DNA of 64,000 nucleotides, taken from assembly GCA_019454045.1 (NCBI GenBank), contig SKCR01035598.1, forward strand, positions 1-64,000, read 5' to 3'. A program made the position numbers and the translations under genes. The stretch is from Zanthoxylum bungeanum. Lineage: Eukaryota; Streptophyta; Magnoliopsida; Sapindales; Rutaceae. The notes beneath the pieces are model-generated. The model did no database searches and was not told the DNA's origin. It saw nothing but the letters and a program-made list of their open reading frames with translations. The first letter of the stretch is position 1. Each line of letters starts with the position of its first letter. Below, one piece after another: positions 13,593-45,972 of this stretch.

Positions 13593-14115
13593 TTTTTTTG
13601 TATTTTTTTTGTATTTCTTTCTCAAATCAAGATGCCTTCAAAAGTGCATTGACGGGCTGAATTTATAGTACCTGAAAAAGGGTGAGTAATAATAGCACTA
13701 ATATCTTCCAAAGTACGATTGTTAGCTTAACAATAAAAGAGATCGTGAAAGGTCAAAAAGTTTGGATCCTGTCTACGAAATAAAGATAATTACAATAGAA
13801 AAGCGAATCAAAGCAATAATTAAGGCAACGAAATTATGTACGCAATACGCCACTCGCTTAGTATAAATTCATTAGGATGTGTCTCAAGATTTCATTCCTT
13901 ATTCAGGCCATCGCTAATGAATTGTTTCTCATCTTTGATTGCCAAACACAATTCCTTCTGTCTTAAAATGCTTCGTTGTGCCTTCCCTACAAAAATAACA
14001 CACAAAATTAAAAGTTCACACAAAATATGAAAACAAATTACAACAAATTGCATGGTTGCCTCCCTGCTAGCGCTAAATTTTTCGTCTTCAGCCAAACGTG
14101 ACTGAAATTCATCTG
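13593..14115 (-). other. LA2 leader between gag-like ORF and LOG
   Basis: Contains, on the element strand, GCGCTAGCAGGGAGGCAACCATG (read 14073-14051), a T-rich tract ending TTTTTGTAGGGAAGGC that looks like a splice acceptor near 13985, and a remnant of a second frame (DEKQFISDGLNKE, LETHP) shared with the ORF at 31956-32360. The frames are too broken to call a product. Confidence 0.5.
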
Positions 14116-15382: not shown

Positions 15383-15489
15383 TTTTCAATCACCTGAAAA
15401 TACAATAAAGAAATAAAAATTACAGATAAAGAAAAATTAGATACAAGTAAATTAGATAGCTTCAAACTTAATAACTCAAGAAAAATAAG

Positions 15490-15506
15490 TCCCGGCAACG
15501 GCGCCA
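15490..15506 (-). other. Primer binding site, tRNA-Asp type (LA2)
   Basis: Plus strand TCCCGGCAACGGCGCCA equals the tRNA-Asp 3' end with one C missing, six bases from the LTR at 15513. Confidence 0.85.
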
Positions 15507-15512
15507 AAAACT

Positions 15513-18728: not shown

Positions 18729-19381
18729 ATGGAAGCAACTTCACAGCAGCGATTCAAGTGAATTTGTGTTTTCTGTAGATCCAATTCTGGTAATAAACCA
18801 GAATTCATTGAGGCTGCAAAAGAATTGGGGCGAGTCATAGCAGAGAAAAATATGCACTTAGTATATGGCGGTGGCAATCTTGGATTTATGGGAAGCATTT
18901 CAAAAGCCATTCAGGATGGTGGCGGTCATGTTTTGGGAATCATTCCAAAACCTTTGGCGGACGAACAATTAATTGGACCAACAAATGGAGATGAACACAT
19001 TGTCTCGGGGATGTCTGAACAACTTCTTGAAATGGTCAATACTGCTGATGCGTTTATTGCTTTACCAGGTGGACTCGGAACGTTTGAAGAGATATTCACA
19101 GTGGCATCATGGGTGCACTTGAACATTCATTAGAAGCCCATTGGGTTACTTAATATTGAGCATTTCTTCGATATTCTGTTTGTATTTCTTGCGGAAGCTA
19201 AGAGACATAAGTTTGTCACCAAATCAGTACAAGATATTTTCCTGACTACAACAAAGGCCGATGAATTAATTGACCAATCCTAGCCTTTGAACCAAAAATC
19301 GACCTCATTCTTTCCAAGTTGAACTGGTAAGATAATGATCGTGATAAGAAGCGTAAATTGGACATAGATCTTAATCGGTAA
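18729..19381 (+). pseudogene. LOG-family cytokinin phosphoribohydrolase, transposon-borne (LA1)
   Basis: The most continuous LOG copy, nearly all in one frame. It has MEATSQQRFK, a stop (TGA, 18759), ICVFCRSNSG, YGGGNLGFMG and [20 protein letters not shown]. Then come MSEQLLEM, where the family has MxxRKxxM (the conserved Arg is Gln), [17 protein letters not shown] (catalytic motif intact) and WVHLNIH. A TAG at 19131 replaces the next codon. KPIGLLNIEHFFDILFVFLA and TKADELID follow, and a frameshift lies near 19275. The tail ends LDIDLNR at 19381 instead of the LDLNL seen in LA2 and LA3. Host LOGs are about 215 residues, the same length. The copy is dead. Confidence 0.88.
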
Positions 19382-19440
19382 TTTTTCGTAGATTTTCAGC
19401 TAACTAGGTACGACCTTCTTAACTCTCCTTCTACTGTTTA

Positions 19441-19477
19441 AGACATTGGGGACAATGTCTCATTTAGGTTTGGGGGA
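19441..19477 (+). other. ATTGGGGACAATGT / GGTTTGGGGG box after LOG (LA1)
   Basis: GACATTGGGGACAATGTC dyad and GGTTTGGGGGAGG, 60 bp after the LOG frame ends; same box as at 12848, 30862 and (changed) 54611. Confidence 0.75.
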
Positions 19478-20695: not shown

Positions 20696-22508
20696 TGATG
20701 AGTGGTAATTATATCACTATTTCCCACTCATTTAACCTAATATTTTATTTAGTTTCTCGAGTTTTATGAATATTTTGATGTGTTTTTATTTATTTTGTAG
20801 ATAAAAATAGTAGTGGGACTTAATGAAATCAACTCGGGGTTAAAACGATGAAATCTGGAGGAAAAAGGTCAAAAACGAAATTTTACTATACGCGTCACGA
20901 AGTGCAGTCCTAAATTCTAATTTTGCGCATGTTTCGTATTTTGGCCATAACTTTTTCATCCGATATCCGATTGAGCTTATTCAAGTTGAAGATTAAAAAA
21001 ACTCAAAGATCTACAACTTTGAAGATTTAAATATTTTCAATTTTGAATTTTGGAAGGCCGAAATTGATGAACAATCCAGTAAATATTGAGTAATTACTAA
21101 AGTCATTTTCAATATATAAAATAAAAATAATAAAAATAAAAATAAAAATGTCAAACTTCCACCAAACATGCTTCCATGTTTGATGCAATGTTTGGTGCCA
21201 TGTTTGGTGTCATGTTTGATGCCATGTTTGGTGCCATGTTTGGTGGAGCAATCGGTGGAGAAATTGGTGGAAGCCTTTAGATTTTCCTATAAATACCAAG
21301 CTATTTCATTTGTAATTCTCATGCTTTCCTTAGGTTTTTGTAAGAAATTTAAGGATTGCATCTTGTGTGTTTATTTTTAGTTTTATTTTCAGTAATAGTA
21401 GTAGTTTCTTTTCTTCTTCCTTTCTTTTCTTTTATGTTCAGTAGTTAGATTTTCCGCTGGGAAAGGATAAAACTTTTATTATTTTAGTTTAGATTAATCT
21501 CCCTTAATTATAATATAGAAAGTATAATTCAAATTAAAAGGATTACCGCCTTAATGGCTGGTTTTATTTATTTGACATAAAATAACACCGCCTATATGGC
21601 TGGTTTATGGACAAATAATAATACCGCCTTTATGGATGGTTGGACTTAATTAAAATTTGACTTAATGAGGAATACCACCTATATGGTCGGTCGGTAATAT
21701 CATGGATAAATTATGTATTATAATAAGAGAGATTTCTAAATTAGAAATAGTAAAAGTGGATCCCCAACCCCAACATTTTATTTTTATTCTAGGGAAGTGA
21801 TGAAACACAATATCCACACTTAATAATTGATTTTCTTTTTATGGGTAATTCTTTAGTTTGTTTATTGATTCTAAGCTTAATGCTTCTTGTTGTCTGATCA
21901 CCAATAAGATTGATGTGGTAAACTTAAAATGAATTTGGAAAAAAGATTTTAGGTTTCAGCCTTAGATTCAATAGCTCATGATCTTCCTTGAGGATAGATA
22001 ATCCTTTAATAGATTTCCTTACATGATAAGAATATACCTTTCGGGCGAGGCTAACCATAATTGGAACTTGAACTTAATGAATCCAGGTAATTTGGTTGAC
22101 ATATGAATATGGTTCAATTGGGTTATACTGGATATTTGTGTCTGACCATCGGAAGAGGCTTTTGCATATCATCGTGTTCCAGGTTAGCAAACTAATTTAT
22201 TACACATATACAAGAGAATCAATTCATCTTTTTAATAATATTGTGTGGAGTCACAACCCTAGATCTTTGAGTTTTTCTTTTATTTTCCTTAGTATTTTCT
22301 TTTGAGTCTGTTTTTATTTTAATTAGCAAATCTACATTCAACCAACCAAAAGTAATCAATTCCCTTCTCCCTAAAATTAGATACCTGTAAATAAATAGTA
22401 TCAATAATTAATAACAACAGTATGAATTAAGTCCTCGTGGGATCGATATTTTTATACTACTTGAACGATACGTGTGCTTGCGTTATACGCGTGTGAATGC
22501 ACCGGTCA
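20696..22508 (+). mobile_element. LA1 3' LTR
   Basis: TGATGAGTGG...ACCGGTCA, 1813 bp, followed by the duplication ACCCC. U3 12-bp repeat expanded to about six to seven units (about 21169-21244), TATA box at about 21287, ACCGCCTATATGGC array at about 21541-21712. Near-identical to 6085-7879 apart from the repeat and scattered changes. Confidence 0.92.
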
Positions 22509-23131: not shown

Positions 23132-23833
23132 TGATATGATCCTAGCTGCACCTGGTTCGGTCCAGACCACAATCGATCCAATCCATGTACCAGTTGGACC
23201 AATTACAAGACACAGGGCTCGGAAGATCAAGGACGCTATGGCATGTCTAACCCAACATCATGTAGCAGAATTGAACAAGCAGGTTCGAGACCAATTGGAC
23301 TTCAAGGAAGAGGGTTCAAGAGTTATATATTTGACCTAAGTCATCGAGGAGCAACATGGATCGATTTCGTTCATTTAAGATTATTTATTATTTATTTGCA
23401 TGTATGGAACCAACTTGGACGACCGTTTTATTTATTATTTGGGTTAGTTTATTTAGTTATTTATGGGTTCAAAATGGGCTAGAAATTAGGAGTTATGGGC
23501 TTTTAGTTGCTAATTGGTAGTTTAGGGTTATTTTAGTCTTTTTAGCTCTCTTAGGGTTTGAGTATGTTACTATTTAAACTCAAAAACAACTCTTAATGAG
23601 GCACCAAAGTTTATGTGCGTGAATAGTAACTTTTTCTTGAGATAAAGAAAATTTTATCATCGTTCAGTGATTGAACAAAGACTTACTAAAGGGTTGGCAA
23701 TCCTTTGTGGCATCCGATTTGCTGGCAAAATTCATCTGAGGATATCTCCAAGGGTTTTCAAGGACAGGTTCTTTGGGGGTCTACGGCTAATCTCGGATCG
23801 AGTTTCGTGTTTTTCGTATCCGATTTTGTATCA
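23132..23833 (+). mobile_element. GY 5' LTR
   Basis: TGATATGATCC...TTGTATCA. Includes a TTTATTATTTATTTGCATGTATGG stretch and a leader with GAGGCACCAAAG and TTGAGATAAAG. The partner LTR at 42910 is closely similar with small indels. Confidence 0.9.
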
Positions 23834-26701: not shown

Positions 26702-27980
26702 TTGGGGGGTAAGAGTGATAACAGTGAGAAAATGGGATCTAAACACGAGAGTGGGGGAAACACTGGGATTAGAACCGAGAGTAAACCCAAGGGAAATGGG
26801 GCTGAAGGAGAGAGTGAGAAGAAAGGGAGAGTGAAAAAGAGTTTTTATCTTGGTGAGGGAGAAGTGAGGAGAGCCTACAAAGCTAGCAAAATCATGTTGC
26901 TACTAATGTATAAAGACACACCACATTTTTCTTTACTTACTAACACTAACAATTCACTTCTTGTTTCTATTTCTTCTCTTTTGCAGGAATTTGAAGACGT
27001 GTTCACAGAGGACATTCCTAATGGGCTCCCACCCATTCGAGGGATAGAACATCATATTGATTTCGCGCCTGGAGCTGTCATACCTAATAGAACCGCATAT
27101 ATGAGTAATCCTGAGGAGACCAAGGAACTTCAGAGGCAAGTTGAGGAGCTGATGGAGAAGGTTTACATACGAGAGAGTATGAGCCCGTGTGCAGTACCGA
27201 TATTATTAGTGCCTAAGAAGGATGAGACGTGGCGTATGTGCGTGGATTGTCGTGCCATCAATAATATCATGGTAAAGTATCGACATCCCATTCCTAGACT
27301 AGATGATATGTTAGATGAACTACATGGATCTAAGATTTTTAGTAAATTGAACTTAAAAGTGGATATCACCAGATTCGTATGAGAGAGGGAGACGAGTGGA
27401 AGACCACTTTTAAAACTAAGTATGAGCTATATGAGTGGTTAGTAATGCCTTTTGGTTTAACAAACGCCCCTAGCACTTTTATGAGACTTATGAACCATGT
27501 GTTGCATGCATGTATAGGGAAGTTTGTAGTGGTCTATTTTGATGACATATTAGTATACAGTAAATCTTTAGATGAGCATGTAGATCATTTGAAAAGTGTG
27601 CTTGATATTTTAAGAAAGGAAAGATTATTTGCTAATTATAAGAAATACACATTTTACATGGATATAGTCGTTTTTCTTGATTTTGTAGTGACTGCAGATG
27701 GCATAGAGATGGATGAGGAGAAAATTAAAGTGATTAGAGATTGGCCACCACCTACCACGGAGTCAGCGGTACGGAGTTTTCATGGATTGGCAATTTTCTA
27801 TAGGCATTTTATGAAGGACTTCCGTAGCATAACAGCACCATTGACTGAGGTAGTCAAGAAGACTGTTGGATTTCAGTGGGGTGAAGTTTAAGAGAGTGCC
27901 TTTCAGACTCTCAAGGAGATGCTATGTAGTGCACCAGGCCTTGCACTACCTAATTTTGAGAGCACATTTGAGATAGAGTG
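26702..27980 (+). pseudogene. GY reverse transcriptase and start of RNase H
   Basis: Linker, then RT: LQEFEDVFTEDIPNGLPPIR, VPKKDETWRMCVDCRAINNI and HPIPRLDDMLDELHG. A frameshift lies near 27360. It continues with [20 protein letters not shown] and the intact catalytic box [13 protein letters not shown], then [22 protein letters not shown] at 27889 replaces a codon. RNase H starts [13 protein letters not shown] and is cut at 27985 by LA3. It resumes at 41297 with [11 protein letters not shown]; the join (...GAG TGT GAT GCA AGT...) is exact. Confidence 0.92.
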
Positions 27981-27985: not shown

Positions 27986-29632
27986 TGACCGGCGTAATCA
28001 CACACGTATAACGCAAGCACACGTATCATTCAAGTAGTATAAAAAAGTATCGATCCCACGAGGACTTAAAACCTTTTTTATTAATTTTTATGAGGCTAAA
28101 TGATTACGGGTATCTAATGATTTGTTTGATTTCATTGGGAAAATGTGATGATTCTAAATTTAAAAACAAGTAAATAAAATTTGCGAAAGTAAATTGGTGG
28201 AAATTCAAATTATAAAAACTATCCAGGGTTGTGATTTATTCTAATATTATTTAAAGATGAAGTGGTTATCTTATAGTTGGGTAAAACATTGATTTATTAA
28301 CCTGGAACACTAAATTATGTAAAAGCCTCTTCCGATGGTCAATTACAAATACCTAGTATAATCCAATTGAACAAAATGTCTATGTCAATCAAATTACCTA
28401 GATTCATTAGGATTAAGTTTCAATTATGGCTACCCCCGCCCGACATGTATATTAATATCCTGTAAGGAAATCTATTAAAGGGTTATCTATCCTTAAGGAA
28501 GATCGTGGGCTATTGAGACTAAGGTCTTACCAAAAAAACCGGCCATATAGGCGGAAATGGAATTTTAAATACTAACCGACCAATCTAGCGGTATCCTTAC
28601 TTAGTCAAGATTAACCAGATTAAAATGATTTATCAAACGGCCAATATAGCGGTATCCTCATTAAGTCCAATTTTAAATAGTGAATATATTATTATTATGG
28701 GAGATTAATCTAACTAGCAATAGTAAAAGAATTACCTTTCACCTTAGCATGGGGAAGTTACATCGACATGGTTGAATAGTAAAACTGTAACAGTAAAAAG
28801 GTAAAAATAAATTACTATTACTATTACTATTACAAAAGTAAAATTACTATTACTATTACAGAACGTAATTAAAATTAATTACAAAACTTAAATTAAAAAA
28901 AGAAATAAGAAGATAACTCCCTATTTACATCAGAGAATTCAGAAAGAATGGTACATCTGAAACTGAAATCTGAACTCTATGTATAGGCACGGATAGGACT
29001 CGGGCGTCGCGACGCCGAAACAGTGACACATGTCACACGGAGGCGGCTGCAACTCAATGATTGTGCTGACGTGGCGACACATGGCGAAAGCGATTGTAGG
29101 CACCGTAGGATTGCGACACATGGCAACACGTGGCATGCTGTGATTGGCTGATGATGACGTGGCACTTTGACTTGGTCAACAGCTGATGACGTGGCATGAC
29201 ACGAGGTAAAGTTGACTCGTTGACTTGATGACGTGGCCGATGATGTGGCAACACGTAGGAAGACACGTGGCGATGGCGATTGTCGGCACCATAGGATGAT
29301 GACATGTGGCACGGCGCATGTTAGCAGATCGGCTATGATGTTGACACGTGGCACGACGTATTTTAGCAAAGTCAAACTTCTTAAATTCTGACTTGTTGAC
29401 CGGCGCACGTTAGCAGATCGGCGCACGTTAGGCGTCGCGACGTCAGCAATTTACCAAAATGCCATTTTTCCAAATTTTCAATGTTTTGCTCCAAATCACC
29501 TCCAGAGTGTCCTGAAACTTTATTTATCTATAAAATAACACAAAACACATCAAAATATTCACAAAACTCAAGAAACTATACAAAATATGAGGTTAAATGA
29601 GTGGGAAATAGTGATAGATTTACCACTCATCA
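27986..29632 (-). mobile_element. LA3 3' LTR, internally deleted
   Basis: TGACCGGCG...CTCATCA, 1647 bp against 2105 bp in the partner. About 450 bp are missing near 28530 (between TTGAGACTAAGG and GGCCATATAGGCGG), removing part of the R-U5 block. Array remnant at about 28540-28665. The TATA box is altered to CTATGTATAGG (28977-28987). U3 has many ACGTGGC/W-box motifs (29060-29360) and the GGCGTCGCGACGCC palindrome. Confidence 0.9.
29003..29016. repeat. Perfect 14-bp palindrome GGCGTCGCGACGCC
   Basis: A perfect dyad just upstream (element sense) of the TATA position in LA3. Variants occur in the partner LTR (about 40628, 41072) and in LA4 (58881-58894 perfect; about 48036-48049). Confidence 0.85.
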
Positions 29633-30954: not shown

Positions 30955-31607
30955 TTAAAGGTTAAGATCCAGATTAATCCGACGTCTCTTACCACGATCG
31001 TTCTCGGACCAATTTATCTTAGAAAGGATAGGATCGATTTGTGGTTCAAAAGCTAAGATTTGGTCAATTAAATCTGGGGCAGTTCTGTCAGTAAGGAGAA
31101 ATTCTTTCAAAGGTTTTGTCACGAACCCATTTCTCCGGACATCCTCAAGAAACACACAAAGAAAATCATAATATCCTTCAACATTATACAGTCCAAGTGG
31201 TTTCTGGTGTATGTTCAAGTTCGCCCAAGATAGAACTATAAAAATTTCCTCCAATGTGCCCAAGCCACCTGGCAAAGCATAAAAGCATCAGGACGATTAA
31301 TCATTTCTACCAGTCGTTCAGACATACCTGACACAATTAGTGCTTCTCCATTTGATGGTCCAATAAGATTTGCCTCTGCCAAGGGTTTTGGGATGATTCC
31401 CAAGACTGGACTGCCTCATTCCTGTACGGCCTTTGAAATGATCCACATAAGTCCAAGATTGACTCCGCCATATACTAAGTTCATATTCCTTGCAGCTAAG
31501 ACTCGACCTAATTCTTGTACTGTTGCTATGTATTCTGGTTTAACACCAACACTAGTACCACAAAACACACAGATGTTCTCAATTCGTCTTCTTGAAGTGG
31601 CTTCCAT
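30955..31607 (-). pseudogene. LOG-family cytokinin phosphoribohydrolase, transposon-borne (LA3)
   Basis: MEATSRRRIENICVFCGTSVG; the nucleotide motif is changed to YGGVNLGLMW. Near 31415 VQE runs into a stop. It resumes with [30 protein letters not shown] (family Arg kept, Lys replaced by Leu) and, after a 1-bp deletion near 31280, [11 protein letters not shown]. Then comes the best preserved C-terminus: SWANLNIHQKPLGLYNVEGY, FLEDVRRNGFV, TAPDLIDQILAFEP, LSKINWS and the tail RGKRRRINLDLNL. It lies between the integrase/Cys-rich ORF and the 3' hairpins, on the element strand, so it is a regular element gene rather than a later insertion. Confidence 0.9.
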
Positions 31608-31955
31608 GTTTATGTATTTCTTTCTTAAATCTGGATGCCTTCCAAAGTGCAATGACGGGCTGAATTTATAGCACCTGAAAAGAGTGAGTAATAATAGCAC
31701 TAGTACCTGCCAAATGATAATTATTAGTTAAACAGTACAATAAATCGTGATAGTAAAAAAGGTCCAGATCCTATCTGAGAAAATAAAAGAAAACAACAAA
31801 ACAAATCAAAATTATTAGAAAAAGACAAAGAGATATAATATGTACAAGAAAAGTAACGGCTTGATTGACGTCTATGCGTCAGGGACAAGCTTCCCATCCA
31901 ATTTTCTTATAAATTGGCAAACATGGTCTTTTTGAGTCAGATTCCCGAGACTTAA
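31608..31955 (-). other. LA3 spacer upstream of LOG
   Basis: AT-rich; contains the TACTAGTGCTATTATTACTCAC motif also found upstream of LOG in LA1 and LA4. No gene seen. Confidence 0.5.
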
Positions 31956-32360
31956 CTATTGTCTTTCTCTTAGAAATTGTGTATGTAATTTGCGAATGGC
32001 TATATGAACATATCCACTGGGATGCGTCTCAAGAGTCGAAGATAGGTCATATAAAGACTCCTTACTCAAGCCATCCCTAATGAATTTAATTTTATCTTCG
32101 CGATTATCAGACACCATTCCTAAAGAACGACAACGAGTATTGCAATTACATCGTGCACATTTGAAACAAACACCCATTTGTTTAGCTCTACGTTTCTTTG
32201 CATATGTGCTTCTTCCAAATCCAAGCAAATAAGAAGTACAAGAATCAGAATACTCACCTGCTAATCGAACTTGTGCTTCGATTACCCAACGAATGTCATT
32301 AGGAATACCATGGATCATCAGTAGTCTCATTCTTTCCAAGCGAGCTTTGTAAACTTTCAT
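31956..32360 (-). CDS. Unknown Cys-rich ORF between integrase and LOG (LA3)
   Basis: 134-codon open frame, not recognised. Basic N-terminal half, then a cysteine cluster, CFKCARCNCNTRC (CX2CX2CXCX3C), and a C-terminal segment IKFIRDGLSKESLYD...LETHPSGYVHIAIRKL. That last segment recurs in broken form in LA1 (18390-18480), LA2 (13850-13960) and LA4 (twice, near 55580 and 55890), so it is an LA family gene or exon rather than chance. It follows the GGGAGGCAACCC box and a T-rich TTTTTACAG tract at about 32435-32515. An exon joined to LOG, or an env-like protein, are both possible; I cannot decide. Confidence 0.45.
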   Translation of the reverse strand: MKVYKARLERMRLLMIHGIPNDIRWVIEAQVRLAGEYSDSCTSYLLGFGRSTYAKKRRAKQMGVCFKCARCNCNTRCRSLGMVSDNREDKIKFIRDGLSKESLYDLSSTLETHPSGYVHIAIRKLHTQFLRERQ

Positions 32361-32494
32361 CAGAGAGTTTTGAGGGAGAGAGGGAAATTACTTGTGAAGA
32401 TTTGCGAGAACTTCTTCCATCTTGTAATGACTAAATCTGTAAAAACTAAACACACAAAATTAAATCACACCAAATTACAATATATACAATGATT

Positions 32495-32612: not shown

Positions 32613-33430
32613 CTAGTAGTGCTTGACACGCTGACTGTTAACTTTGAATGTGTTATTGGTATTGGGATCCAGTAACTCAACGGCTCCATGTGATAAAACT
32701 TGAGTGATCACAAATGGACTTGACCACCTTGATTTTAACTTTCCAGGGAACAGTTTAAGCCTCGACTTGTAGAACAACACCTGTTGTCTTGGTTCCAACT
32801 GTCTGTGCACTATTTTTTGGTCATGCCATTTATTGGTCTTTTCTTTGTACAGTCTGGCATTCTCATAAGCCTGTAAGCGAAATTCCTCCAATTCATTGAG
32901 TTGGTGGAGTCTTTTCTCTCCTGCAGCTTGTGAATCAAGATTCAGCTTCTTTAGTGCCCAGTACGCCTTGTGTTCAAGCTCAACTGGCAGATGACATGCT
33001 TTCCCAAACACCAATTGATATGGGACATACCAATGGGTGTCTTGTAAGCTGTACGGTAAGCCTATAATGCGTCATCCAGTTTTGTAGACCAGTCCCTCCT
33101 TGTTGATCCAACGGTTCTCTCTAAGATTCTTTTGATTTCTCTGTTTGAAACCTCAACCTGTCCATTTGATTGTGGATGGTAAGCAGTGGAAACCTTGTGA
33201 GAAACTCCGTATTTGGATAGAAGTGCATCAAAGTATTTGTTGCAGAAGTGAGAACCACCATCGCTGATGATCGCCCGAGGTGTTCCGAACCGAGTGAAAA
33301 TATTCTTTTTCAGAAATTTGATCACCACTTCTGAATCATTGGATGGCAGTGCAATTGCTTCGACCCATTTGGAGACGTAATCTACAGCAACCAAGATGTA
33401 CATGTTTCCAAATGATGGAACAAAGGGTCT
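32613..33430 (-). pseudogene. LA3 integrase, core and C-terminus
   Basis: Right to left: [55 protein letters not shown] (second Asp), [20 protein letters not shown] (third acidic residue) and [11 protein letters not shown]. After a frame change near 33060 come [28 protein letters not shown] and the tail [16 protein letters not shown]...[11 protein letters not shown]. The first Asp region is separated from this part by the 413-bp insert at 33431. Confidence 0.92.
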
Positions 33431-33843
33431 GATACCACTTGTCGTATGAGGAACGGACAAACCAGAGCGCAGCGGAAACCCGCCCGAGATCAAATCGCGA
33501 GCGAATAAAAAAATATTATTATTTTTAATTAAATCTCGGTAGTCCTAAAAATAGTGGGTTTAAAATTTTTAATTACAAACTTAAAATTTCAAATGCATTA
33601 AAACATTTTCATGCATTAAAATAATTACCATAAGCCAATTAAAAATTTTCAACACACTTAAAAATATTTATCAACTTTTGATAAATCATTCCAAGCAATA
33701 AATTAATTTTCAAACTCTTGGAAAAATTAATCCATGCTAACAAAATAATTTTCCAACATTTACAAAATTATTCCAAGCATATTACATAATTTCCAACTCT
33801 TGAAAATTACTTCAAGCATACAAAAATTTCTATATCAACTATA
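33431..33843 (-). mobile_element. 413-bp insert in LA3 integrase, copia-LTR-like
   Basis: Splits the codons for DFM / PFVPSF; a 3-bp TCT is found at both sides (33428-33430, 33844-33846). The right-hand end on the minus strand reads CCGCTGCGCTCTGG...GACAAGTGGTATCAGA, like the end of a copia LTR plus its tRNA-iMet primer site; the rest is AT-rich with no ORF. It could be a truncated copia LTR, a TRIM-like element or another small insertion. Boundaries follow from the integrase frame and are firm; identity is tentative. Confidence 0.6.
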
Positions 33844-34149
33844 TCTCATGAAATCAATACCCCACACATCGAATATCTCCACTTCCAAAATACTTTGCAA
33901 CGATCCTTCATTTTTCCTCGAAATATTCCCTATTCTCTGGCACTTGTCACATTGAAGAGCAAAAAGATAAGCATCTTTAAAAAATATGGGCCAGAACAAA
34001 CCTGATTGAAGAACTTTTGCTGCAGTTTTGACACCGTTGAAGTGTCCGCCATATGGTGATGAATGACAGTGCTGCAAGACACTGTTGACCTCCTCATGTG
34101 GAACGCATCGTCTCAATAATTGATCAGCACACCGTTTGAACAGGTACGG
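33844..34149 (-). pseudogene. LA3 integrase, zinc-binding N-terminus
   Basis: RCVPHEEVNSVLQHCHSSPY and GGHFNGVKTAAKVL, then FWPIFFKDAYLFALQCDKCQ: the HHCC zinc-binding domain of gypsy integrase with all ligands visible, ending VWGIDFM, which begins the catalytic core before the insert. Confidence 0.9.
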
Positions 34150-34924
34150 CTAATCCCAGACATAATGCTTGACATCTTTGAAGAATTTCTTTCGTTGCTG
34201 AGTTGTCCATTCTAACAGCCATTTTCCTGATACAATGTAATTGACATAATCAGCATACCAAGGGATATCGTGCTGTTTCATGGCAAACAGATGTTCAACT
34301 GGAAAAGTTTCTTTGATTGTCAGTTCTTTGCCAGCTGTTTCTCCATTATCGAGCCTCGATAAATGATCTGCCACTTGGTTTTCTGTCTCTTTCCTATCTC
34401 GAATCTCCATGTCAAATTCTTGTAGAAGAAGTATCCAACGGATCAATCTGGGTTTGGCATCTTTCTTTGCGATCAGATATTTGATTGCTGAATGATCTGT
34501 GTAGACCACCACTTTGGGACCCAGCAGATAGGAAAGAAATTTATCAAAAGCGAACACAACTGCAAGCAACTCTTTTTCAGTGGTTGTGTAATTGAGTTGA
34601 GCTTCATTCAGAGTTCTGCTGGAATAGTAAATGGTATGGAAAATCTTTGCTTTGTGTTGTCCCAAAACTGCACTTACAGCAAAATCACTAGCATCACACA
34701 TTACTTCAAATGGAAGGGTCCAGTCTGGTGCTACTATGATGGGGGCATAAACCAGCTTCTGTTTCAATATCTCGAAGGCTTCCTAGCATTCTTTGGTGAA
34801 GTTAAAATGCACATCCTTTTCCAGAAGATTGCAAAGAGGTTTTGCAATTTTGGAAAAATCTTTGATAAATCTCATGTAGAATCTTGCATGTCCAAGAAAA
34901 CTCTGAATCCCTTTGACAGATGTT
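34150..34924 (-). pseudogene. LA3 RT C-terminus and RNase H
   Basis: TSVKGIQSFLGHARFYMRFI and FSKIAKPLCNLLEKD, then RNase [64 protein letters not shown] and DLS-like HLSRLDNG. A stop lies near 34770-34780 between the two. The reading frame stays open for about 205 codons over RNase H. The RT domain is split from its main part by the hAT MITE. Confidence 0.92.
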
Positions 34925-34932: not shown

Positions 34933-35724
34933 TAGGGGTGAGCAAAACTGATTTCGGTTCCGGTTCCGCATGGAACCGGAACCTACCCGGAAAAATTCGG
35001 TTCCGCACTAAGTGGAACCGGAACCTACCCAATTAAACAGGGTACTCTATTATTCGGTTCCAATCTGGTTCCGGTCCGGTTCCGGTCCGATTCCGAATTA
35101 CCATATTTTAAAATATTTTAATGAAAACTACATTCTAATACGAGTCCGTAGGAAAAAACGGGGACCAAACGGGGACCAAACTACACTTTCTCTCTTGAGT
35201 ATTCACTTATCTGGTCCTAATGATGATATTCTTACTTATATTTTAGAGTTGGGATAATAATACTCTCTATTATTGTATCTCATGTAGGAGACTACTGGTT
35301 ATTTCTTCTGTCTAGAGGATTGAGCTTTACTTTGTCGAAAATGTGATGTTGCCATCCACACAACAAATACATATGTCTCTGCTTATCAGCAATTTGTGCT
35401 GACTGGTGTCAAAGTAGGACTTGGATCAACATAACCATGTGTATCCACTACCATGAACAAGTCAGATTCAGATTGAGCTACAACTTAATTTTTCATGAAC
35501 AATTACAAAAAGTTGTATGTAATGTATGAAGTTGATGTGAAACCGGTTCCATGGTCCGGTTCCGGTTCCGATCATTTTGGAACCGGAACCTACCCGGATA
35601 AAATCGGTTCCTTTATTTTTGGAACCGGAACCTACCCGATTACAACCGGTTCCGGTTCCAAACCCGAAAAATCGGTCCGGTTCCAACCGGTTCCGGGTAG
35701 ACCCGGAACCGTTGCTCACCCCTA
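34933..35724. mobile_element. hAT-type non-autonomous transposon (MITE) in LA3
   Basis: 792 bp with terminal inverted repeats TAGGGGTGAGCAA...TTGCTCACCCCTA and an exact 8-bp duplication GGTAGAGG (34925-34932 and 35725-35732), the hAT hallmark. Both subterminal regions are dense in GGTTCCGG/CCGGAACC, the same motif that fills the ends of the hAT element at 61139-63709. No transposase. It interrupts RT of LA3 between LPLP and TSVKG; apparent coding at its left end in the RT frame is read-through. Confidence 0.95.
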
Positions 35725-35732
35725 GGTAGAGG

Positions 35733-37541
35733 TAGTTTTTCAATTATCTTGATCTTTGCTTTGTCTACCTCAATCCCCTTTTGTGAGATCCGGTGTCCAA
35801 GAACAATGCCTTCCTGCACCATGAAGTGGCATTTCTCCCAGTTGAGTACCAGGTTTGTGTCTTCGCACCTTTGTAACACATGTTCCAGATTTTGCAAGCA
35901 GTGGCCAAAAGAATCTCCAAACACAGAAAAATAATCCATGAATACCTCCATGCTCTGTTCCAGCATGTCTGAGAGAATGGCCATCATGCAACGCTGAAAT
36001 ATGGCTGGGGCATTACATAATCCAAATGACATTCTGCGGAAAGCAAAAGTACCATAGGGACATGTAAACGTCGTTTTCTCCTGGTCCTCTGGTGTGATGG
36101 CAATTTGATTGTAACCTGAATATCCATCCAGAAAGCAATAGTATTCATATCCAGCCAGTCTGTCCAGCATCTGGTCAATGAATGGCAGCGGAAAATGGTC
36201 ATTTCTCATAGCTTTGTTCAGCTTTCGATAATCCATGCATACTCTCCATCCAATCACCGTTCTTGTTGGAATCAACTCATTCTTTTCATTGATGACAACA
36301 TTAATTCCTCCTTTCTTCGGCACACACTGCATAGGACTCACCCAACTGTTGTCTGATATGGGATAAATGATGCCAGCATCCAACCATTTGATGATTTCTT
36401 TCTTCACGACTTCCTTCATGATTGGATTGAGTCTCTGTTGATGCTCCACTGTGGGTTTGTACTTATCGTTCATCAGAATCTTGTGCATGCAAAATGATGG
36501 ACTAATACCTCGAATGTCTGCTATATTCCAGCCAATGGCTTTCTTGTGCTCTCGCAATACTCTCAGTAACTTTTCTTCATGTTCCAATGTTAGTGAAGAA
36601 GAAATAATAACAGGTAATTCAAAAGAGTTTCCAAGAAATGCATACCTGAGATGACTCGGAAGTAATTTCAGTTCCAACTGCGGTGGTTCTTCAATTGAAT
36701 GTTTGATTCGATCTTTCTTCGGTAGTTCTAGACTTTCCACTAGTGTTGTTGATTTGAAACGGAACGGCTTGTCAAGATAGTTGATACATTCCATAATTTC
36801 AGCATCAAGCTCGCTGTCAGTCATGTTGGTGATGCAAGCTTCAAGTTTGTCTGTGGGAACTGTATCACTGTCTTGGATGATACTATCAAAAACATCAATT
36901 CTGAAGCATTTTTCCTCATTTTCATCGCTCGGGAATTTCATGGCTTTGAAAACATTGAAGGTAACTTCTTGGTCCTGAACTTTCATGGTTAGTTCTCCTT
37001 TTTGAACGTCAATCACAGTTCGACCTGTTGCCAAAAATGGTCTCCCAAGAATGATAGGAACATCTTTGTCTTCTTCCATGTCTAGGATGATGAAATCTGC
37101 TGGGAGAATGAGTTTGTCAACTTTGACCAGCACATCTTCAACAACACCCTTCGGAAATGCGAGCGTTCGATCAGCAAGTTGTAATGAAACTGAGGTAGGC
37201 ATTGCTTCTCCAATTTTTAGTTTCCTATAAATAGAAAAAGGCATTAAATTAACACTTGCACTTAAATCACATAAAGCCTTACCAATGTATTGTTCTCCAA
37301 TGGTGCAAGTGACTGTGAAACTGCCAAGATCTTTCAACTTCAGGGGAAGTTTCCTCTGAATGATGGCGCTGCATTCTTCCGTCAATGCTACTGTCTCGTA
37401 GTCTCCCAATCTCCGTTTCCGCGAAAGAATGTCTTTCATGAATTTGACATAACTGGGCATTTCTTCCAAGGCTTCTGCGAATGGAATGTTAATGTGCAGC
37501 TTTTTGAACACCTCCAGGAATCGAGCAAACTGTTTGTCCAT
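35733..37541 (-). pseudogene. LA3 protease and reverse transcriptase
   Basis: One long open frame. N-terminal FLEVFKKLHINIPFAEALEE (end of gag/protease linker), protease with ALCDLSASVNLMPFSIYRKL (active site DLSA where DLGA is usual) and VPIILGRPFLATGRTVIDVQ, a linker, then RT: WVSPMQCVPKKGGINVV, GWRVCMDYRKLNKAMRNDHF, YCFLDGYSGYNQI, GTFAFRRMSFGLCNAP. The catalytic box reads MEVFMDYFSVF, where MDD is expected, so the second catalytic Asp is Tyr (about 35930-35935). The content is that of Athila-type gypsy. Open frame but inactive RT. Confidence 0.93.
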
Positions 37542-37548
37542 TTTATTT

Positions 37549-39066
37549 TTCTGAAGACGCTGAGGAAAATGTGGAGGTGGAGTGATCTGTTCTGGTTCCT
37601 TTTCCTTTGCTTTTTTTCCTTTGCTTCTTTTTCCTCAATCTGTGGAACTGCATCTTTAGGAACTTCCTCGATTGTTGTTTTGAGTCCAACATCTTTGTTG
37701 ATCTTAGTACCGCTTTTCAAGGTGATGGGTTGACATTGCTCCTTCCCTCGGTTCCTTGGATTTGGTTCAGTATTGCTGGGAAGATTTCCTGGCAGTCTGT
37801 AACTCTGAGCATTGGCCAGTTGGCCAATTGATTCTCCAATGCTTTGATGGAAGCTGATTGGTTTTGGAACATAGCTTCATATCTTTTTAACTGAGCTAGC
37901 ACTTCTACCATTATTGGTTCTTTTTCATGCTCCTAGCTTTTGTTCTGTTGTTGGAATCCAGATGGTGGATAGTTCTGCTGTTGGAATCCAGGTGGTGGAT
38001 TGTTCTTCTGCTGTGAATTGTTGCTCCATGAAAAGTTAGGATGAGTCCTCCACTCTGGGTTGTAGGTGTTGGAATATGGATTGTTCCCTTGTCTGTTGAA
38101 ATTGTTGACATAATTCACCATTTCTTTAGGTTGAGTTGGTTCTGGTGCTCCTTCATATGTTGAACTTGTGGCTCCAATGTTGCTTTGAGTGCTGAGAGTC
38201 TCCATGAATTGCATATCTGATCCATTGATGACTGCCTGACTGCTGTATTGGCTCCACTTCATAAATTCCTGCAATTCTTTGAATCATGCTCCTTTCTGTT
38301 GGCCACAAGGATTGTTGTTGGCCATCTCTTCAATTAGGTCTCAGGCTTGCTCTTCTCCTTTTGACATCAACGCTCCTCCAACAGCAGCATCAATTGTGGT
38401 TCTCATCAGTCAAGAAAGTCCATTATAGAAAGTTTGGACTTGAAGCCATTTTGGAATCTCATAGTGAGGACATTTTCAGAGCAAATCTTTCTACCTTTCC
38501 CAAGCTTCGTAAAGGGATTCCGAATCTTGTTGTACAAAAGATGTGATGTCATTCCTCAGTTTTGCTGTTCTGGCTGGTGGAAAGTACTTTGCAAGGAATC
38601 TGGTGGCTAGAGTGTTCCACGTTGTGATGGAACCAGCTGGTAGTGAATGTAGCCAAGCTTTTGCTCTGTCTTTCAAGGAGTATGGAAAAACTCGCAGTCT
38701 CATTGCTTCTTCAGCTCCTCGGTTGTAATTGAAAGTGCCGCAAACTTCCAGGAAGTTGCTGATGTGGGCATTAGGATCTTCAGTTGCATTCCCCCCAAAC
38801 TGAACTGACTGCTGAATCATATGAATGCAAGTTTTGATGTCACCCGCATTTGCTGGTAAGGGAGGAAGTACAATACAGGAAATGAGGCCATCTACCACCG
38901 GAATGGTTCTGTCTCGAATGGGAATTGGTGGTGCAACCTCCAAAGGTTCAGGTTCCATGTTAACGATTGCTTCTTGACCTTCTCACATTTCCCTTCTCAA
39001 CTGTCTGATGGTTCTTTCAATTTCTGGGTCAAACGGATGGAATTCAAAGCTTCTGGCTCGTCTCAT
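37549..39066 (-). pseudogene. LA3 gag, broken
   Basis: Starts at 39066 (MRRARSFEFHPFDPEIERTI), with a stop after LRREM. Next comes the gag core at 38958-38491: ISNFLEVCGTFNYNRGAEEA, LKDRAKAWLHSLPAGSITTW and RFLAKYFPPARTAKLRNDIT. The tail has NPYSNTYNPEWRTHPNFSWS and Gln/Pro-rich PPGFQQQN repeats (38274-37933), then a coiled segment with LKRYEAMFQNQSASIKALEN (37911-37717). Several stops and frame changes. Typical Athila/Tat gag. Confidence 0.9.
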
Positions 39067-39167: not shown

Positions 39168-39185
39168 TCCCCGGCAACGGCGCTA
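39168..39185 (-). other. Primer binding site, tRNA-Asp type (LA3)
   Basis: Plus strand TCCCCGGCAACGGCGCTA, one mismatch to the tRNA-Asp 3' end, six bases from the 5' LTR. Confidence 0.9.
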
Positions 39186-40600
39186 AAAACTTAATCGGCG
39201 TAATCACACTCGTATAACGCAAGCGCACATATCGTTCAAGTAGTATAAAAAGTATCGATCCCACAATGACTTAAAACCTTTTGTTATTAATTTTTATGAG
39301 GCTAAATGATTACGGGTATCTAATGATTTGTTTGATTTCATTGGGAAAATGTGATGATTCTAGATTTAAAAACAAGTAAATAAAATTTGCGAAAGTAAAT
39401 TGGTGGAAATTCAAATTATAAAAACTATCAAGGGTTGTGATTTATTCCAATATTATTTAAAGATGAAGTGGTTATCTTATAGTTGGGTAAAACATTGATT
39501 TATTAACCTGGAACACTAAATTATGTAAAAGCCTCTTCCGATGGTCAATTACAAATACCTAGTATAATCCAATTGAACCATATGTCTATGTCAATCAAAT
39601 TACCTAGATTCATTAGGATTAAGTTCCAATTATGGCTACCCCCGCCCGACAGGTATAATCTTATCCTGTAAGGAAATCTATTAAGGGTTATCTATCCTCA
39701 AGGAAGATCGTGGGCTATTGAGTCTAAGGTTTTAAACTTAAAATCCATATGTCTAGTTCATTTTAAGTTTTCCTAATCAATTTTATTAATGGCCAATTAA
39801 TAAAAAGCATTAAGATTAAGACTCAATAAATAAATCTTTAAATTACCCAAACTATAATCTAACCCTTATAAAATCGTGATATTGAAATTCATCACAACCC
39901 TAGATAACTAACTTAGTTACGACACATAACTAGGGCTAACGAAAACTTAAAAGACATAAGGTAAAAATTGCGGAAAAGTAAAAGTAAACACTGAAAAGTA
40001 AATTACAATAAAATAAAATGCTAAAGTAAAAGGAATTAACTTCTACTATTTATTATTTAGATATCTCCCATAATATAATATATTAACTTGTGATAGTTTT
40101 ACCAACCAGCCATATAGGCGGTATCCTGATTAAGTCAAATTAAGTCCAACCAGCCATAAAGGCGGAACCAAAATAAACCAGCCATATTGGCGGAAAGGGA
40201 ATTTTAATTACTAACCGACCAATCTGGCGGTATCCTTACTTAGTCAAGTTTAACCAGATTAAAATGATTTACCAACCGGCCAATATAGCGGTATCCTCAT
40301 TAAGTCCAATTTTAAATAGTGAATATATTATTATTATGGGAGATTAATCTAACTAGCAATAGTAAAAGAATTACCTTTCACCTTAGCAGGGGGAAGTTAC
40401 ATCGACATGGTTGAATAGTAAAATTGTAACAGTAAAAAGGTAAAAATAAATTACTATTACTATTACAAAAGTAAAATTACTATTACAGAACGTAATTAAA
40501 ATTAATTACAAAACTTAAATTAAAAGAAATTAAGAAGATAACTCCCAATTTACATCAGAGAATTCAGAGAGAATGGTACATCTGAAACTGAAATCTGAAC

Positions 40601-40612
40601 TCTATTTATAGG
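40601..40612 (-). promoter_or_regulatory. TATA box of LA3 5' LTR
   Basis: CCTATAAATAGA on the element strand, with the G-box array immediately upstream; the leader downstream holds the CATATAGGCGGT array. Confidence 0.7.
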
Positions 40613-40639
40613 CGCGGATAGGCCTCAGGCATCGCGACG

Positions 40640-41045
40640 CCGGAACAAGGACACGTGTCACGCGGAGGCGGCTGCAACTCAATGATTGTGCAGACGTGGC
40701 GACACGTGGCGAAAGCGATTGTAGGCACTATAGGATTGCGACACGCGGCGACACGTGGCATGCTGTGATTGGCTGATGATGACGTGGCACTTTGACTTGG
40801 TCAACATCTGATGTGGCTGATGACGTGGCATGACACGGGTAGAGTTGACTCGTTGACTTAATGATGTGGCCGATGATGTGGCAACACGTAGGAAGACACG
40901 TGGCACACGTGGCGATGGCGATTGTCGGCACCATAGAATGATGACACGTGGCACGGTGCATGTTAGCAGATCGGCTGTGATGTTGACACGTGGCACGGTG
41001 CATTTTAGCAAAGTCAAATTTCTCAAATTCTGACTTGTTGACCGA
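40640..41045 (-). promoter_or_regulatory. G-box/ABRE and W-box array in LA3 U3
   Basis: Nine ACGTGGC cores within about 300 bp (40690-40995), six of them as the full G-box/ABRE-type CACGTGGC. Also TGACG elements, paired TTGAC/GTCAA W-box cores near 40792-40803 and 40845-40857, and a GATTGGC CCAAT box. bZIP/bHLH factors bind CACGTG-type and WRKY factors bind TTGAC-type sites; a stress-inducible promoter is an inference. Confidence 0.7.
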
Positions 41046-41296
41046 CAGACGTTAGCAGATCGGCGCACGTTAGGCGTCGCAACGCCAGCTTGGGCGCGTC
41101 GCGAAACCGGCAAATTACCAAAATGCCTTTTTTCCAAATTTTCACTGTTTTGCTCCAAATCACCTCCAGAATGTCCTAAAACTTTATTTATCTACAAAAT
41201 AACACAAAACACATCAAAATATTCACAAAACTCAAGAAACTATACAAAATATGAGGTTAAATGAGTGGGAAATAGTGATAGATTTACCACTCATCA

Positions 41297-42909
41297 TGAT
41301 GCAAGTGGCATATGTATTGGAGCAGTATTAATGCAAGAGAAAATACTTATTGCGTACTTCTGTGAAAAGTTGAACAAGGAAACTTTGAGGTATCCCACGT
41401 ACGATAAGGAGTTGTATGCACTTGTTCGAGCACTGGAGAATTGGAAACATTACCTATGGCCCAAAGAGTTCGTGATACACACAGATCATGAGAGTTTGAA
41501 ATACCTTAAAGGGCAAGGAAAACTGAACAAGAGGCATGCTAAATGGATGAAGTTTGTAGAGACATTCCCATACGTCATTCGCTACAAACAAGGTAAGGAA
41601 AATGTAGTTGCAGATGCCTTGTCACGCATGTATGTTTTACTTACTTCTTTAGGTGCTAAAATGTTAGGGTTTGAATTTATTAAAGAGCTTTATGCATGTG
41701 ATGTGGATTTTTGTGATATATATGTTGCATGTATTAAATCTGCATTTAGTAAATTCTACCAGCATGAGGGATTTCTGTTTAGAGAAAATAAGTTATGCAT
41801 TCCTTCTTATAGTATGTGTGAGCTATTAGTGAGAGAGGCTCACAGAGGCGGACTAATGGGACATTGTGGAATTAGTAAGGCAATAGAAACCTTAAAGGAT
41901 CATTTTTACTGGCCAAAGATGAAGCGCGATGTAGAGCGAATTTATGATCGATGTCTCACTTGTAGAAGGCCAAATCTAGGGTGAAGCCTCATGGATTATA
42001 TACTCCATTACCTGTACCTAGTGAACCATGGGTAGATATTTCGATGGATTTTATGTTGGATTTACCTAGGACTAAACGAGGTAAGGATTTCATTTTTATA
42101 GTGGTTGATAGATTTAGCAAAATGGAACACTTCATTGCGTGCCATAAAACTGATGATGCCACTAACATATCAGACTTATTCTTTAGAGAGGTAGTACGAG
42201 TACATGGAATTCCTAGGAGTATAGTTTCTGATAGAGATGTCAAGTTCTTGAGTCATTTCTGGAAGGTTTTGTGGGGTAAGCTAGAGACTAAATTACTTTA
42301 TTCTACTACGTGTCACCCTCAAACAGATGGATAGACAGAGGTGGTCAATAGGACCTTGACTCAGTTGCTTCGGACCATAGTCACTAAGAATTTAAAATCA
42401 TGGGAAAAGTGTTTGCCATTTATAGAGTTTGCATACAATAGGTGCATTCATTCTTCTACTTCATATTCACCTTTTGAAATTGTATATGGATTTAACCCAC
42501 TAACGCCATTGGATTTATTGCTTTTGCCTATTGAGGAAATAGTAGGTTTAGATGGGAAAAAGAAAGCAGAATTGGTGAAACAAATACATGAGAAAGCACG
42601 TGAACACATATTACGGAAAAATGAGCAGTACGTTTCTCATGCGAATAAATGCCGTAAACGCGTGGTGTTTGAGCCTGGTGATTGGGTTTGATTACACATG
42701 CATAAGGAAAGGTTTCCGGCTCAACGAATATCCAAGCTTCAACCTCGAGGAGATGGTCATTTTCAAGTCATCGAAATGATCAATGATAATGCATATAAGC
42801 TTGATCTGCCTGGTGAGTATAATGTTTCTGCTTCATTTAATGTTTCTGATTTATCCCATTTTGATGCAGGTGTCGATTCGAGGTCGAATCCTTTTCAAGA
42901 GAGAGGGGA
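41297..42909 (+). pseudogene. GY RNase H (rest) and integrase
   Basis: RNase [66 protein letters not shown]. Integrase zinc-binding domain: [16 protein letters not shown]...YDRCLTCRR, then a stop at 41982. Core: [39 protein letters not shown] and a TAG after CHPQTDG just before TEVVNRTL (third catalytic residue region). C-terminus: ERFPAQRISKLQPRGDGHFQ, LDLPGEYNVSASFNVSDLSH. No chromodomain follows. The first 30 bp complete the codons cut by LA3. Confidence 0.93.
42897..42909 (+). other. GY polypurine tract
   Basis: AAGAGAGAGGGGA directly before the 3' LTR start TGATGTGATCC. Confidence 0.8.
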
Positions 42910-43602
42910 TGATGTGATCCTAGCTGCACCTGGTTCGGTCCAGACCACAATCGAATCCAAGTACCAGTTGGACCAATTACAAGACACAGGGCTCGGAAGA
43001 TCAATGACGTTATGGCAGGCCTGGCCCAACATCATGTAGCTGAATTGAACAAGTAGGTTCGAGACCAATTGGACTTCAAGAAAGAGGGTTCAAGAGTTAT
43101 ACACTTGACCCAAGTCATCGAGGAGCAGCATGGATCGATTTCGTTCATTTAAGGTTATTTATTATTTATTTGCATGTATGGAACCAACTTGGACGACCAT
43201 TTTATTTATCATTTGGGTTAGTTTTTTTAGTTATTTATGGGTTCAAAATGGGCTAGAAATTAGAAGTTATAGGCTTTTAGTTGGTAATGAGTAGTTTAGG
43301 GCTATTTTAATCTTTTTAGCTCCCTTAGAGTTTGAGTATGTTACTATTTAAACTCAAAAATAACTCTTAATGAGGCACCAAAGTTATGTGCGTGAATAGT
43401 AACTTTTTTCTTGAGATCAAGAAAATTTTATCATCGTTCAGTGATTGAACAGAGACTTATCAAAGGGTTGGCATCCTTTGTGGCGCCCGATTTGCTAGCA
43501 AATTCATCTGAGGCTATCTCCAAGGGTTTTCAAGGACAGGTTCTTTGGGGGTCTACAGGATCTTGGATCAGGTTTCGTCTTTTCGTATCCGATTTCGTAT
43601 CA
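42910..43602 (+). mobile_element. GY 3' LTR
   Basis: TGATGTGATCC...TTCGTATCA, 693 bp, followed by CAATC. Partner of 23132-23833. Confidence 0.92.
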
Positions 43603-45684: not shown

Positions 45685-45690
45685 AGTTTT

Positions 45691-45708
45691 TGACGCCGTT
45701 GCCGAAGA
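45691..45708 (+). other. Degenerate tRNA-Asp primer site (LA5)
   Basis: TGACGCCGTTGCCGAAGA; three G to A changes from the tRNA-Asp complement, as expected of decay by methyl-cytosine deamination on the other strand. Confidence 0.8.
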
Positions 45709-45972
45709 TTTATTTTTCTTGAGTTATTAATTTTGAAGTTATCTATTTTGCTTGTATATAATTTCTTTTTATGTACATATAAAAATAAAATCATTCCGTC
45801 CAATAATATCGTAGATAAGAAACTCACCTGCCTTAATGGATATTTTTAGTTGAGATGGAATCGGAATGAAATGGAATCGGAATGAGCTGGAATAGGAATG
45901 GTAAATCGAAATCAGAATAAATTATTTACTTAACTGTAACAATCAGAATTGGAATGAAGCAATATTACCATT
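45709..45972. other. LA5 leader remnant and junction
   Basis: LA-type leader to about 45775 (TTCTTGAGTTATTAATTTTG), then unrelated DNA with repeated GGAATCGGAATG motifs (45856-45900). No gene. Confidence 0.5.

Follow-up and report, generated by a model that had tools for sequence, protein, structure and literature searches.

LOG genes and their elements in the window

A LOG-family gene lies on the reverse strand at positions 30955 to 31607 of the window, as the whole 64-kb stretch of Zanthoxylum bungeanum DNA analyzed here is called. It belongs to LA3, one of four LTR retrotransposons, LA1 to LA4, whose features are given below. LOG-family reading frames are present on the element strand at all four sites where the first-pass annotation had placed them. 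They are of two subtypes, named after the residue at position 99 (glutamine, Q99, or arginine, R99) in the numbering of the Corynebacterium glutamicum enzyme, CgLOG.

6085 to 7880, forward strand: LA1 5' LTR; primer binding site at 7886
18729 to 19381, forward strand: LA1 LOG, Q99 subtype, broken
20696 to 22508, forward strand: LA1 3' LTR
9473 to 11591, reverse strand: LA2 3' LTR
12944 to 13592, reverse strand: LA2 LOG, R99 subtype, broken, in several frames
15510 to 17500, reverse strand: LA2 5' LTR; primer binding site at 15494-15506
27986 to 29632, reverse strand: LA3 3' LTR
30955 to 31607, reverse strand: LA3 LOG, R99 subtype, broken; pieces 79% and 87% identical to the intact P0012
31608 to 31720, reverse strand: LA3 conserved block upstream of LOG; TATAAATT at 31663-31670, 63 bp before the ATG
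31875 to 32420, reverse strand: LA3 cysteine-rich protein, 182 codons with two in-frame stops, between integrase and LOG
32616 to 34149, reverse strand: LA3 integrase, three pieces in differing frames (zinc-binding, core and C-terminal)
34153 to 34782, reverse strand: LA3 RNase H, from a domain scan of open pieces
35643 to 37634, reverse strand: LA3 protease-reverse transcriptase, open piece
37936 to 38982, reverse strand: LA3 gag pieces; Retrotrans_gag at 2.3e-15 within 38494-38982
39191 to 41296, reverse strand: LA3 5' LTR; primer binding site at 39173-39185, one mismatch
47173 to 48644, reverse strand: LA4 3' LTR
54633 to 55319, reverse strand: LA4 LOG, Q99 subtype, broken
57582 to 59479, reverse strand: LA4 5' LTR; primer binding site at 57564-57576

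Each of the four LOG genes is bracketed by a pair of LTRs, which were located by comparing the window with itself. The identity between the two LTRs of a pair is 0.950 in LA1, 0.980 in LA2, 0.951 in LA3 and 0.943 in LA4. The target duplications differ, as had been stated earlier: all are exact, 5 bp long and distinct (ACCCC, GTACA, TGATG and CTTTT for LA1 to LA4, respectively). The interior of LA1 is the insertion site of LA2. With LTR pairs and distinct target duplications at all four sites, and with direct repeats on both sides of all eight intact copies described below, LOG moves with the element.

The primer binding site, TGGCGCCGTTGYC, is exact in three of the four elements and has one mismatch in LA3; the window contains five matches with at most two mismatches, compared to 0.34 expected. 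We take it to be of the tRNA-Asp type that is usual for Athila. Gag, protease-reverse transcriptase (RT), RNase H and integrase are found in LA3 only, and a search with the gag-pol pieces of LA3 at E<=1e-4 gave no match in the other three elements. The order of the domains, tested in LA3 only, is protease-RT-RNase H-integrase, which is the Ty3/gypsy order. Neither a second (archaeal-type) RNase H nor a chromodomain was detected in the open pieces of LA3 scanned with Pfam, which cover part of its bases. The position of LOG 'after gag/pol', assigned by the first-pass annotation to all four elements, holds for LA3, but not for LA1, LA2 and LA4, nor for the eight intact copies, which have no RT-RNase H-integrase core. 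Similarly, the 3' modules thought to be shared by all are indeed common to LA1, LA2 and LA3, as a segment of ~2.2 kb, 81-87% identical, that begins shortly before LOG and extends to the 3' LTR, whereas LA4 matches this segment in pieces only.

The window contains other mobile sequences. LA3 sits between the RT and the RNase H of another Ty3/gypsy element (23132-43602), which is on the forward strand and has RT at 27379-27888, RNase H and an integrase zinc-binding domain at 41265-41981, and outer repeats (23132-23833 and 42910-43602) that are 92% identical. An extra LTR of the same family as those of the LOG elements (43853-45772, forward strand) has a near-match primer binding site at 45691 with one mismatch, and no LOG accompanies it within the window. 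A 489-residue open frame at 61540-63009 (forward strand) contains a hAT-like transposase domain with an RNase-H fold. A putative plant transposon protein (Transposase_32) at 52472-53155 (reverse strand), within the LA4 interval, is probably a nested insertion. The 5' part of LA2 aligns with LA4 and LA1, and its 3' part is closer to LA3. LA2 (9473-17500) has the youngest LTR pair of the window (98.0%), yet its LOG is disrupted and spread over several frames; the gene may already have been damaged when the element moved.

All four LOG genes of the window are broken. There are three stops and one frameshift in LA1, one stop and one frameshift in LA3, and three stops and 19 gap positions in LA4, and the LA2 gene is spread over three frames with one stop. 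The LA1 frame, with X at the stops, has 5709 homologs at E<=1e-3, the best at 5.5e-105, which rules out chance reading frames as the source of LOG. The best 120 of these 5709 matches constitute the element-like set used below. The profile of the LOG family (TIGR00730/PF03641), TIGR00730, is matched by all 30 aligned members. Viral contigs searched with LOG gave no match.

Intact copies in the genome

The genome of the window (3.96 Gb in 51,709 contigs) contains many intact element LOGs. By hand count, no stop is present in the matched stretch of 80 of the 150 best-scored genome matches to the intact P0001 and of 125 of the 150 best-scored matches to P0012, proportions that overstate intactness because these are the top-scoring matches; the unscored candidates of a first look (4165, 70,440 and 70,454) were not taken as copy counts. 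Two genome copies match P0012 with 100% identity. Among 30 loci (L009-L038), 15 have an intact LOG of 216-217 residues, 14 of them distinct, and 20 more intact frames, picked from matches without stops, are of the R99 type. A DNA search with the LA3 LOG gave eight loci, L001 to L008 (L001 is LA3). LOG is broken in all eight and the R99 pocket string is readable in four.

Intact LOG frames inside LTR pairs, for which a genome-wide search had been proposed, do exist. Long direct repeats bracket all eight intact copies whose flanks were examined, six of the Q99 type (6/6) and two of the R99 type (2/2). The repeats are 98.8, 99.8, 98.9, 97.6, 99.2, 98.0 (C48082), 99.7 (C32635, truncated where the stretch ends) and 98.8% identical, and C48082 has a second repeat piece of 679 bp at 94.1%. 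The exact primer binding site lies at the inner edge of the 5' repeat in seven of the eight elements; in C32635 it was not found with zero mismatches allowed. Five of the six copies tested have an exact 5-bp target duplication and TG...CA ends, the exception being C14400.

A tblastn search with the LA3 domain pieces (E<=1e-5) found the RT-RNase H-integrase core between the repeats of none of the eight elements. Three of them (C33363, C17879 and C43776) have one and the same arrangement of gag, protease, a stop-containing RT stub of 36-42 residues, the C-terminus of integrase, and LOG. LOG is the sole recognized gene in five of the eight, and open frames of unknown kind are present in all three LOG-only elements whose frames were listed. 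Because their repeats are nearly identical and the core is missing, the eight elements are non-autonomous, fairly recent insertions that have retained LOG. The view of LOG as a maintained gene of the element holds and is strengthened; the gene is real and genome-wide.

Active site and fold of the element LOG

As far as the available text of the CgLOG study goes (PMC4979012), R99 and E122 are proposed to be catalytic, adenine is bound by M96, K100 and E121, and the prenyl site consists of M96, H97, K100, E125 and W129. All nine positions checked are invariant in the host LOG set (120/120). In the element-like set, that is the best 120 matches, R99 is found in 98/120, E122 in 118/120, E121 in 117/120 and W129 in 118/120, and H97 is found in 43/120, K100 in 13/120 and E125 in 13/120. 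K100 is replaced by Leu, Ile, Met or Phe, and E125 mostly by His, Thr, Gln or Ile. The LA1/LA4 subtype has Gln at position 99 in all 15 intact copies (14 distinct). In the LA3 subtype, R99 is combined with S97, L100 and I125 in all 20 R99-type copies; E122 is present in 19 of the 20, one copy having E122D, and single copies are altered in the PGGxGTxxE motif. In the Citrus cluster P0100, with 79 member sequences, this motif reads PGDLATFEA and E122 is missing.

The predicted model of the element LOG has pLDDT values of 76-97 in most core blocks, and its core matches that of AtLOG3, 2A33 (TM by target 0.94). Over the aligned core, the P0001 model is 45-46% identical to AtLOG3 (2A33) and 44% to AtLOG8 (1YDH). 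The element protein thus has its predicted fold and the phosphate-binding motif in common with the host enzymes, but H97, K100 and E125 are mostly replaced and R99 is gone in one subfamily. Judging from the model, the LOG fold and the phosphate site have been kept, and the base/prenyl site appears rewired. The replacement of pocket residues in most element-type LOGs and the loss of R99 in the LA1/LA4 subfamily make canonical cytokinin release doubtful, and with it the name 'cytokinin-activating' used in the first-pass annotation; for the LA1/LA4 subtype such activity is unlikely. The NCBIfam model CtkRMPhLog, which is bacterial/archaeal, gives 106.4 bits for P0001 and 114.4 bits for P0012, compared to a cut-off of 300, but three host LOGs (116-132 bits) are also below it, and the cut-off was dropped as a test of enzyme class.

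Origin of the element LOG

Two trees were calculated. The first contained 119 of the 120 element-like hits (P0099 was dropped as too gappy), 120 host LOGs and AtLOG3, and was rooted at its midpoint. An element-type clade of 107 sequences, with a support of 0.93, includes none of the 121 host sequences. It consists of 106 hits without K100 and one with K100 (P0090), and P0001, P0012 and the Populus, Reevesia and Citrus hits belong to it. The remaining 12 hits, all canonical at K100 and E125, group with the hosts (support 0.94) and may be host LOGs or an early form of the element gene. The window copies were added in the second tree (137 rows, FastTree, rooted on 28 hosts). All four are inside a clade of 22 sequences (0.914), where LA1 and LA4 belong with P0001 to a clade of 11 (1.0) and LA2 and LA3 group with P0017 (0.875). 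The comparison with host LOGs, another of the proposed checks, thus gives one element-type clade and not four captures. LOG was captured once according to the sampled tree, the host and element-type sets of which are the best 120 of two separate searches, so that intermediates or closer host LOGs may be absent.

Selection on the element LOG

The element LOG is under purifying selection, which had also been among the proposed checks. By the conditions that the first-pass annotation had named for its rejection (LOG limited to the four copies with dN/dS near 1, or four separate captures), its claim survives. Thirteen intact Q99-type copies, distinct and full-length after one duplicate and one 216-residue copy had been dropped, give a pooled dN of 0.030, dS of 0.234 and dN/dS of 0.13 (bootstrap 0.09-0.18), and 20 R99-type copies give a dN/dS of 0.19 (0.13-0.24); all 33 genome copies were chosen by protein score and intactness, which lowers dN. 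The variable sites in the 13 Q99-type copies number 41, 20 and 109 at the three codon positions. For the window copies dN/dS is 0.13-0.30 in all six pairs, with the top upper bootstrap limit at 0.50, over alignable codons (212/216, 200/200, 211/217 and 147/206, stop codons excluded) that had passed a local-identity filter, which itself lowers dN. In these pairs dS between the two LOG subtypes is near saturation.

In the three elements with gag and protease, dN/dS is 0.08-0.09 for LOG, 0.12-0.17 for gag and 0.07-0.11 for protease (0.07 from five changes), so that the constraint on LOG is similar to that on protease and exceeds that on gag. The integrase remnant of the same elements gives 0.30-0.33 in two pairs and 1.52 (seven changes) in the third. 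LOG in three LOG-only elements has a dN/dS of 0.09-0.12. C33363 (L039) and C17879 (L041) are nearly identical in protease and the integrase remnant and have diverged in gag and LOG. Their protease dS is 0.03, whereas their LOG dS is 0.24, and thus the elements recombine. Because of this recombination, the evidence for selection after the loss of pol falls short of strict proof.

A second, virus-type gene

The cysteine-rich frame of LA3 is 93% identical to the intact P0121. The protein has 279 relatives, and the 120 matches listed include proteins of Populus, Xanthoceras, Acer, Orobanche and Rhamnella and many contigs; one cluster of relatives, P0180, has 566 member sequences. Pfam Carla_C4 is found in 40 of the 42 aligned members and Viral_NABP in 38, with a best E of ~1e-8. 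The predicted fold is poor (pLDDT 58) and has no match at E<=1e-3. The 31 weak fold matches include 19 proteins of this cysteine-rich type, 18 of which we take to be from Betaflexiviridae and one from Garlic virus X, presumably an allexivirus. Viral contigs gave 32 pattern hits with no relative among them.

The gene lies upstream of LOG in all eight LA3-like loci, L001 to L008. It is essentially full length with one or two stops in six, split in L004 and partial in L003; an unbroken full-length frame is present in none of the eight. In the 30 loci L009-L038 no such gene was found within 1.5 kb upstream of LOG. Next to the LOG element of C32635, behind a gag-pol remnant, there is a stop-free cysteine-rich sequence of 144 residues, truncated where the stretch ends. 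The direct loci are better evidence for the pairing than contigs of equal size, where one pair (8723 bases) among 17 x 24 lengths above 3 kb was too weak alone and was rejected as a sign that the two genes travel together.

Like the cysteine-rich, nucleic-acid-binding proteins of Betaflexiviridae (carlavirus CRP), the element protein has Carla_C4 and Viral_NABP, with a basic stretch and a cysteine finger. Unlike these, it is longer (commonest length 182 residues), is encoded by an LTR retrotransposon, and has conserved N- and C-terminal regions of its own. The second gene of LA3 is, at the level of its sequence, a homolog of RNA-binding and silencing-suppressor proteins of this virus family, with a putative function. 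In the available part of PMC3689765, the protein of this family from the carlavirus potato virus H suppresses silencing, and one carlavirus protein is cited as not doing so. A partial literature search found no paper on an element-borne cysteine-rich protein.

Sequences flanking LOG

The conserved block upstream of the LA3 gene contains CAGGT 3'-splice-like sites at 31677 and 31709. In all four window copies TATAAATT lies 63-75 bp before the ATG, with at least one CAGGT just upstream of it. The mean pairwise identity of a 40-bp interval over TATAAATT is 0.88, compared to 0.66-0.86 for intervals inside LOG. It is higher still, 0.90, in a noncoding 40-bp interval just downstream of LOG (LA1 19427-19466), which is the top of the four-copy alignment. 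That interval contains GACATTGGGGACAATGTC and then a purine-rich stretch, and may be an internal polypurine tract. In P0001 and P0005, N-terminal extensions of the protein run through the sequence upstream of LOG. The motifs in the upstream block suggest that LOG has its own promoter (TATA box) or splice acceptor; given this conserved block of its own, LOG is probably expressed from a separate transcript.

Possible roles of the element LOG

In the Athila lineage and its non-autonomous derivatives, LOG is probably an accessory gene that was captured once, is still under selection and has an altered biochemistry. A plant LOG would have been captured once, long ago, by an LTR retrotransposon of this lineage, and would now occupy the env position as a regular accessory gene, both in the lineage and in derivatives that lost the RT-RNase H-integrase core and kept LOG. 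The protein would be made as a nucleotide-binding dimer of the LOG fold with an altered adenine/prenyl pocket, and not as the unchanged host enzyme. The mechanism that we hold most likely is that this altered protein shifts the cytokinin or adenine-nucleotide state of the cell towards division in the element's favor, which would provide more copying chances in the lineages leading to gametes. LA3-type elements would add the cysteine-rich protein of RNA-virus type, which may blunt silencing. When a product is available to every copy in the cell, selection can hardly favor it in a non-autonomous element without an action in cis, and the proposed steps do not account for such an action. More tentatively, the whole might be a cassette that manipulates the host or serves the element itself. 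Its LOG-derived protein would have given up canonical cytokinin activation in one amplified subfamily, where R99 is lost, and yet is one of the most constrained genes of the element, is the sole recognized gene of some non-autonomous copies, and is paired with an RNA-virus-type silencing-suppressor homolog in LA3-type elements.

Several alternatives have to be weighed against this reading. Separate captures from host LOGs would account for two well-separated subtypes, R99 and Q99, within one genome, and the host sampling of the tree is incomplete. However, both subtypes fall, together with LOGs named Populus, Reevesia and Citrus, into one clade without sampled host LOGs, and element sequence upstream and downstream of LOG is common to the copies; four separate captures are rejected on these grounds, and we regard several captures as hardly credible. 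It is also very unlikely that LOG is a hitchhiking passenger with a low dN/dS due to host ancestry or to the choice of copies. The four broken copies of the window and the sampling of genome copies by protein score and intactness would fit a passenger, but a dS of up to 0.5 at a dN/dS of ~0.1-0.2 has accrued inside the element family, as its single clade indicates, and the window copies, which were not picked for intactness, give 0.13-0.30.

The two other alternatives concern what the protein does. If it freed the cytokinin base from the riboside monophosphate like the host enzyme, cytokinin would rise in the cells that express it. The predicted LOG fold agrees with such an activity, as do E122 in 118/120 and R99 in 98/120 element-like hits, R99 in all 20 R99-type copies, and K100 in 13/120 hits, 12 of which group with host LOGs in one tree. 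Canonical activation is nevertheless unlikely: H97, K100 and E125, present in 120/120 hosts, are kept in 43, 13 and 13 of the 120 hits, and R99 is absent from all 15 intact copies (14 distinct) of the LA1/LA4 subfamily. Moreover, alanine at the AMP-binding or catalytic residues of the C. glutamicum LOG, S19A excepted, nearly abolished activity in the available text of PMC4979012, which concerns alanine changes and not the natural replacements of the element LOGs. A protein of the LOG fold could instead have been repurposed to bind nucleotides for the element itself, serving packaging, reverse transcription or nucleotide supply in cis, with no role in hormone biology. The retention of LOG as the sole recognized gene in five of the eight intact-LOG elements, its position as one of the most constrained genes in elements that still have gag and protease, and the loss of R99 in a young subfamily all point in this direction. 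On the other hand, the phosphate-binding motif is kept, which also fits an enzyme, and an additional unclassified open frame is present in some LOG-only elements; we consider a role in cis doubtful. We know of no retroelement that uses a LOG fold in cis for any of these purposes.

Relation to earlier work and significance

LOG-like genes in plant retrotransposons have a history. Steinbauerova, in 2011, is said to have described two Athila-like elements with similarity to LOGL4. More recently, a YgdH/LOG domain was found in consensus Ty3/gypsy sequences from two Citrus species and, when the filter was relaxed, from P. trichocarpa (Alvarado-Marchena 2022, PMC9289625). The available part of that paper cites Steinbauerova 2011 as earlier work. 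The first-pass annotation had thought the combination undescribed, which these reports contradict. Plant LOGs are classified in PMC11593424 with no mention of transposons in the part available, and the terms YgdH, cytokinin and decarboxylase do not occur in PMC7264820 or PMC6317226. The Citrus and Populus elements, Athila-like and with a YgdH- or LOGL4-like gene, resemble those described here in that a plant Ty3/gypsy element carries an additional ORF of the LOG family. New here, beyond those reports, are the many intact element LOGs in young copies, the measured purifying selection, the clade with a rewired pocket, the non-autonomous derivatives that keep LOG and the second, virus-type gene in LA3-type elements. 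The Gypsy elements of Phalaenopsis, which have acquired and retained another host-type enzyme as an extra ORF, are a further parallel. The enzyme is a different one, an AlkB-type RNA demethylase with activity shown in vitro (PMC9289625, as far as available), whereas the element LOG is known from its sequence.

Most extra ORFs of plant retrotransposons have no known use. LOG has a known ancestor, a structure, an active-site map and an assay, and the intact copies and the signal of selection in elements without an RT-integrase core make its retention directly testable. Some genes annotated as 'LOG' in Populus, Citrus or Reevesia may in fact belong to transposons and have an altered chemistry. 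A retrotransposon gene held in common with the silencing suppressors of RNA viruses would link two worlds of counter-defense.
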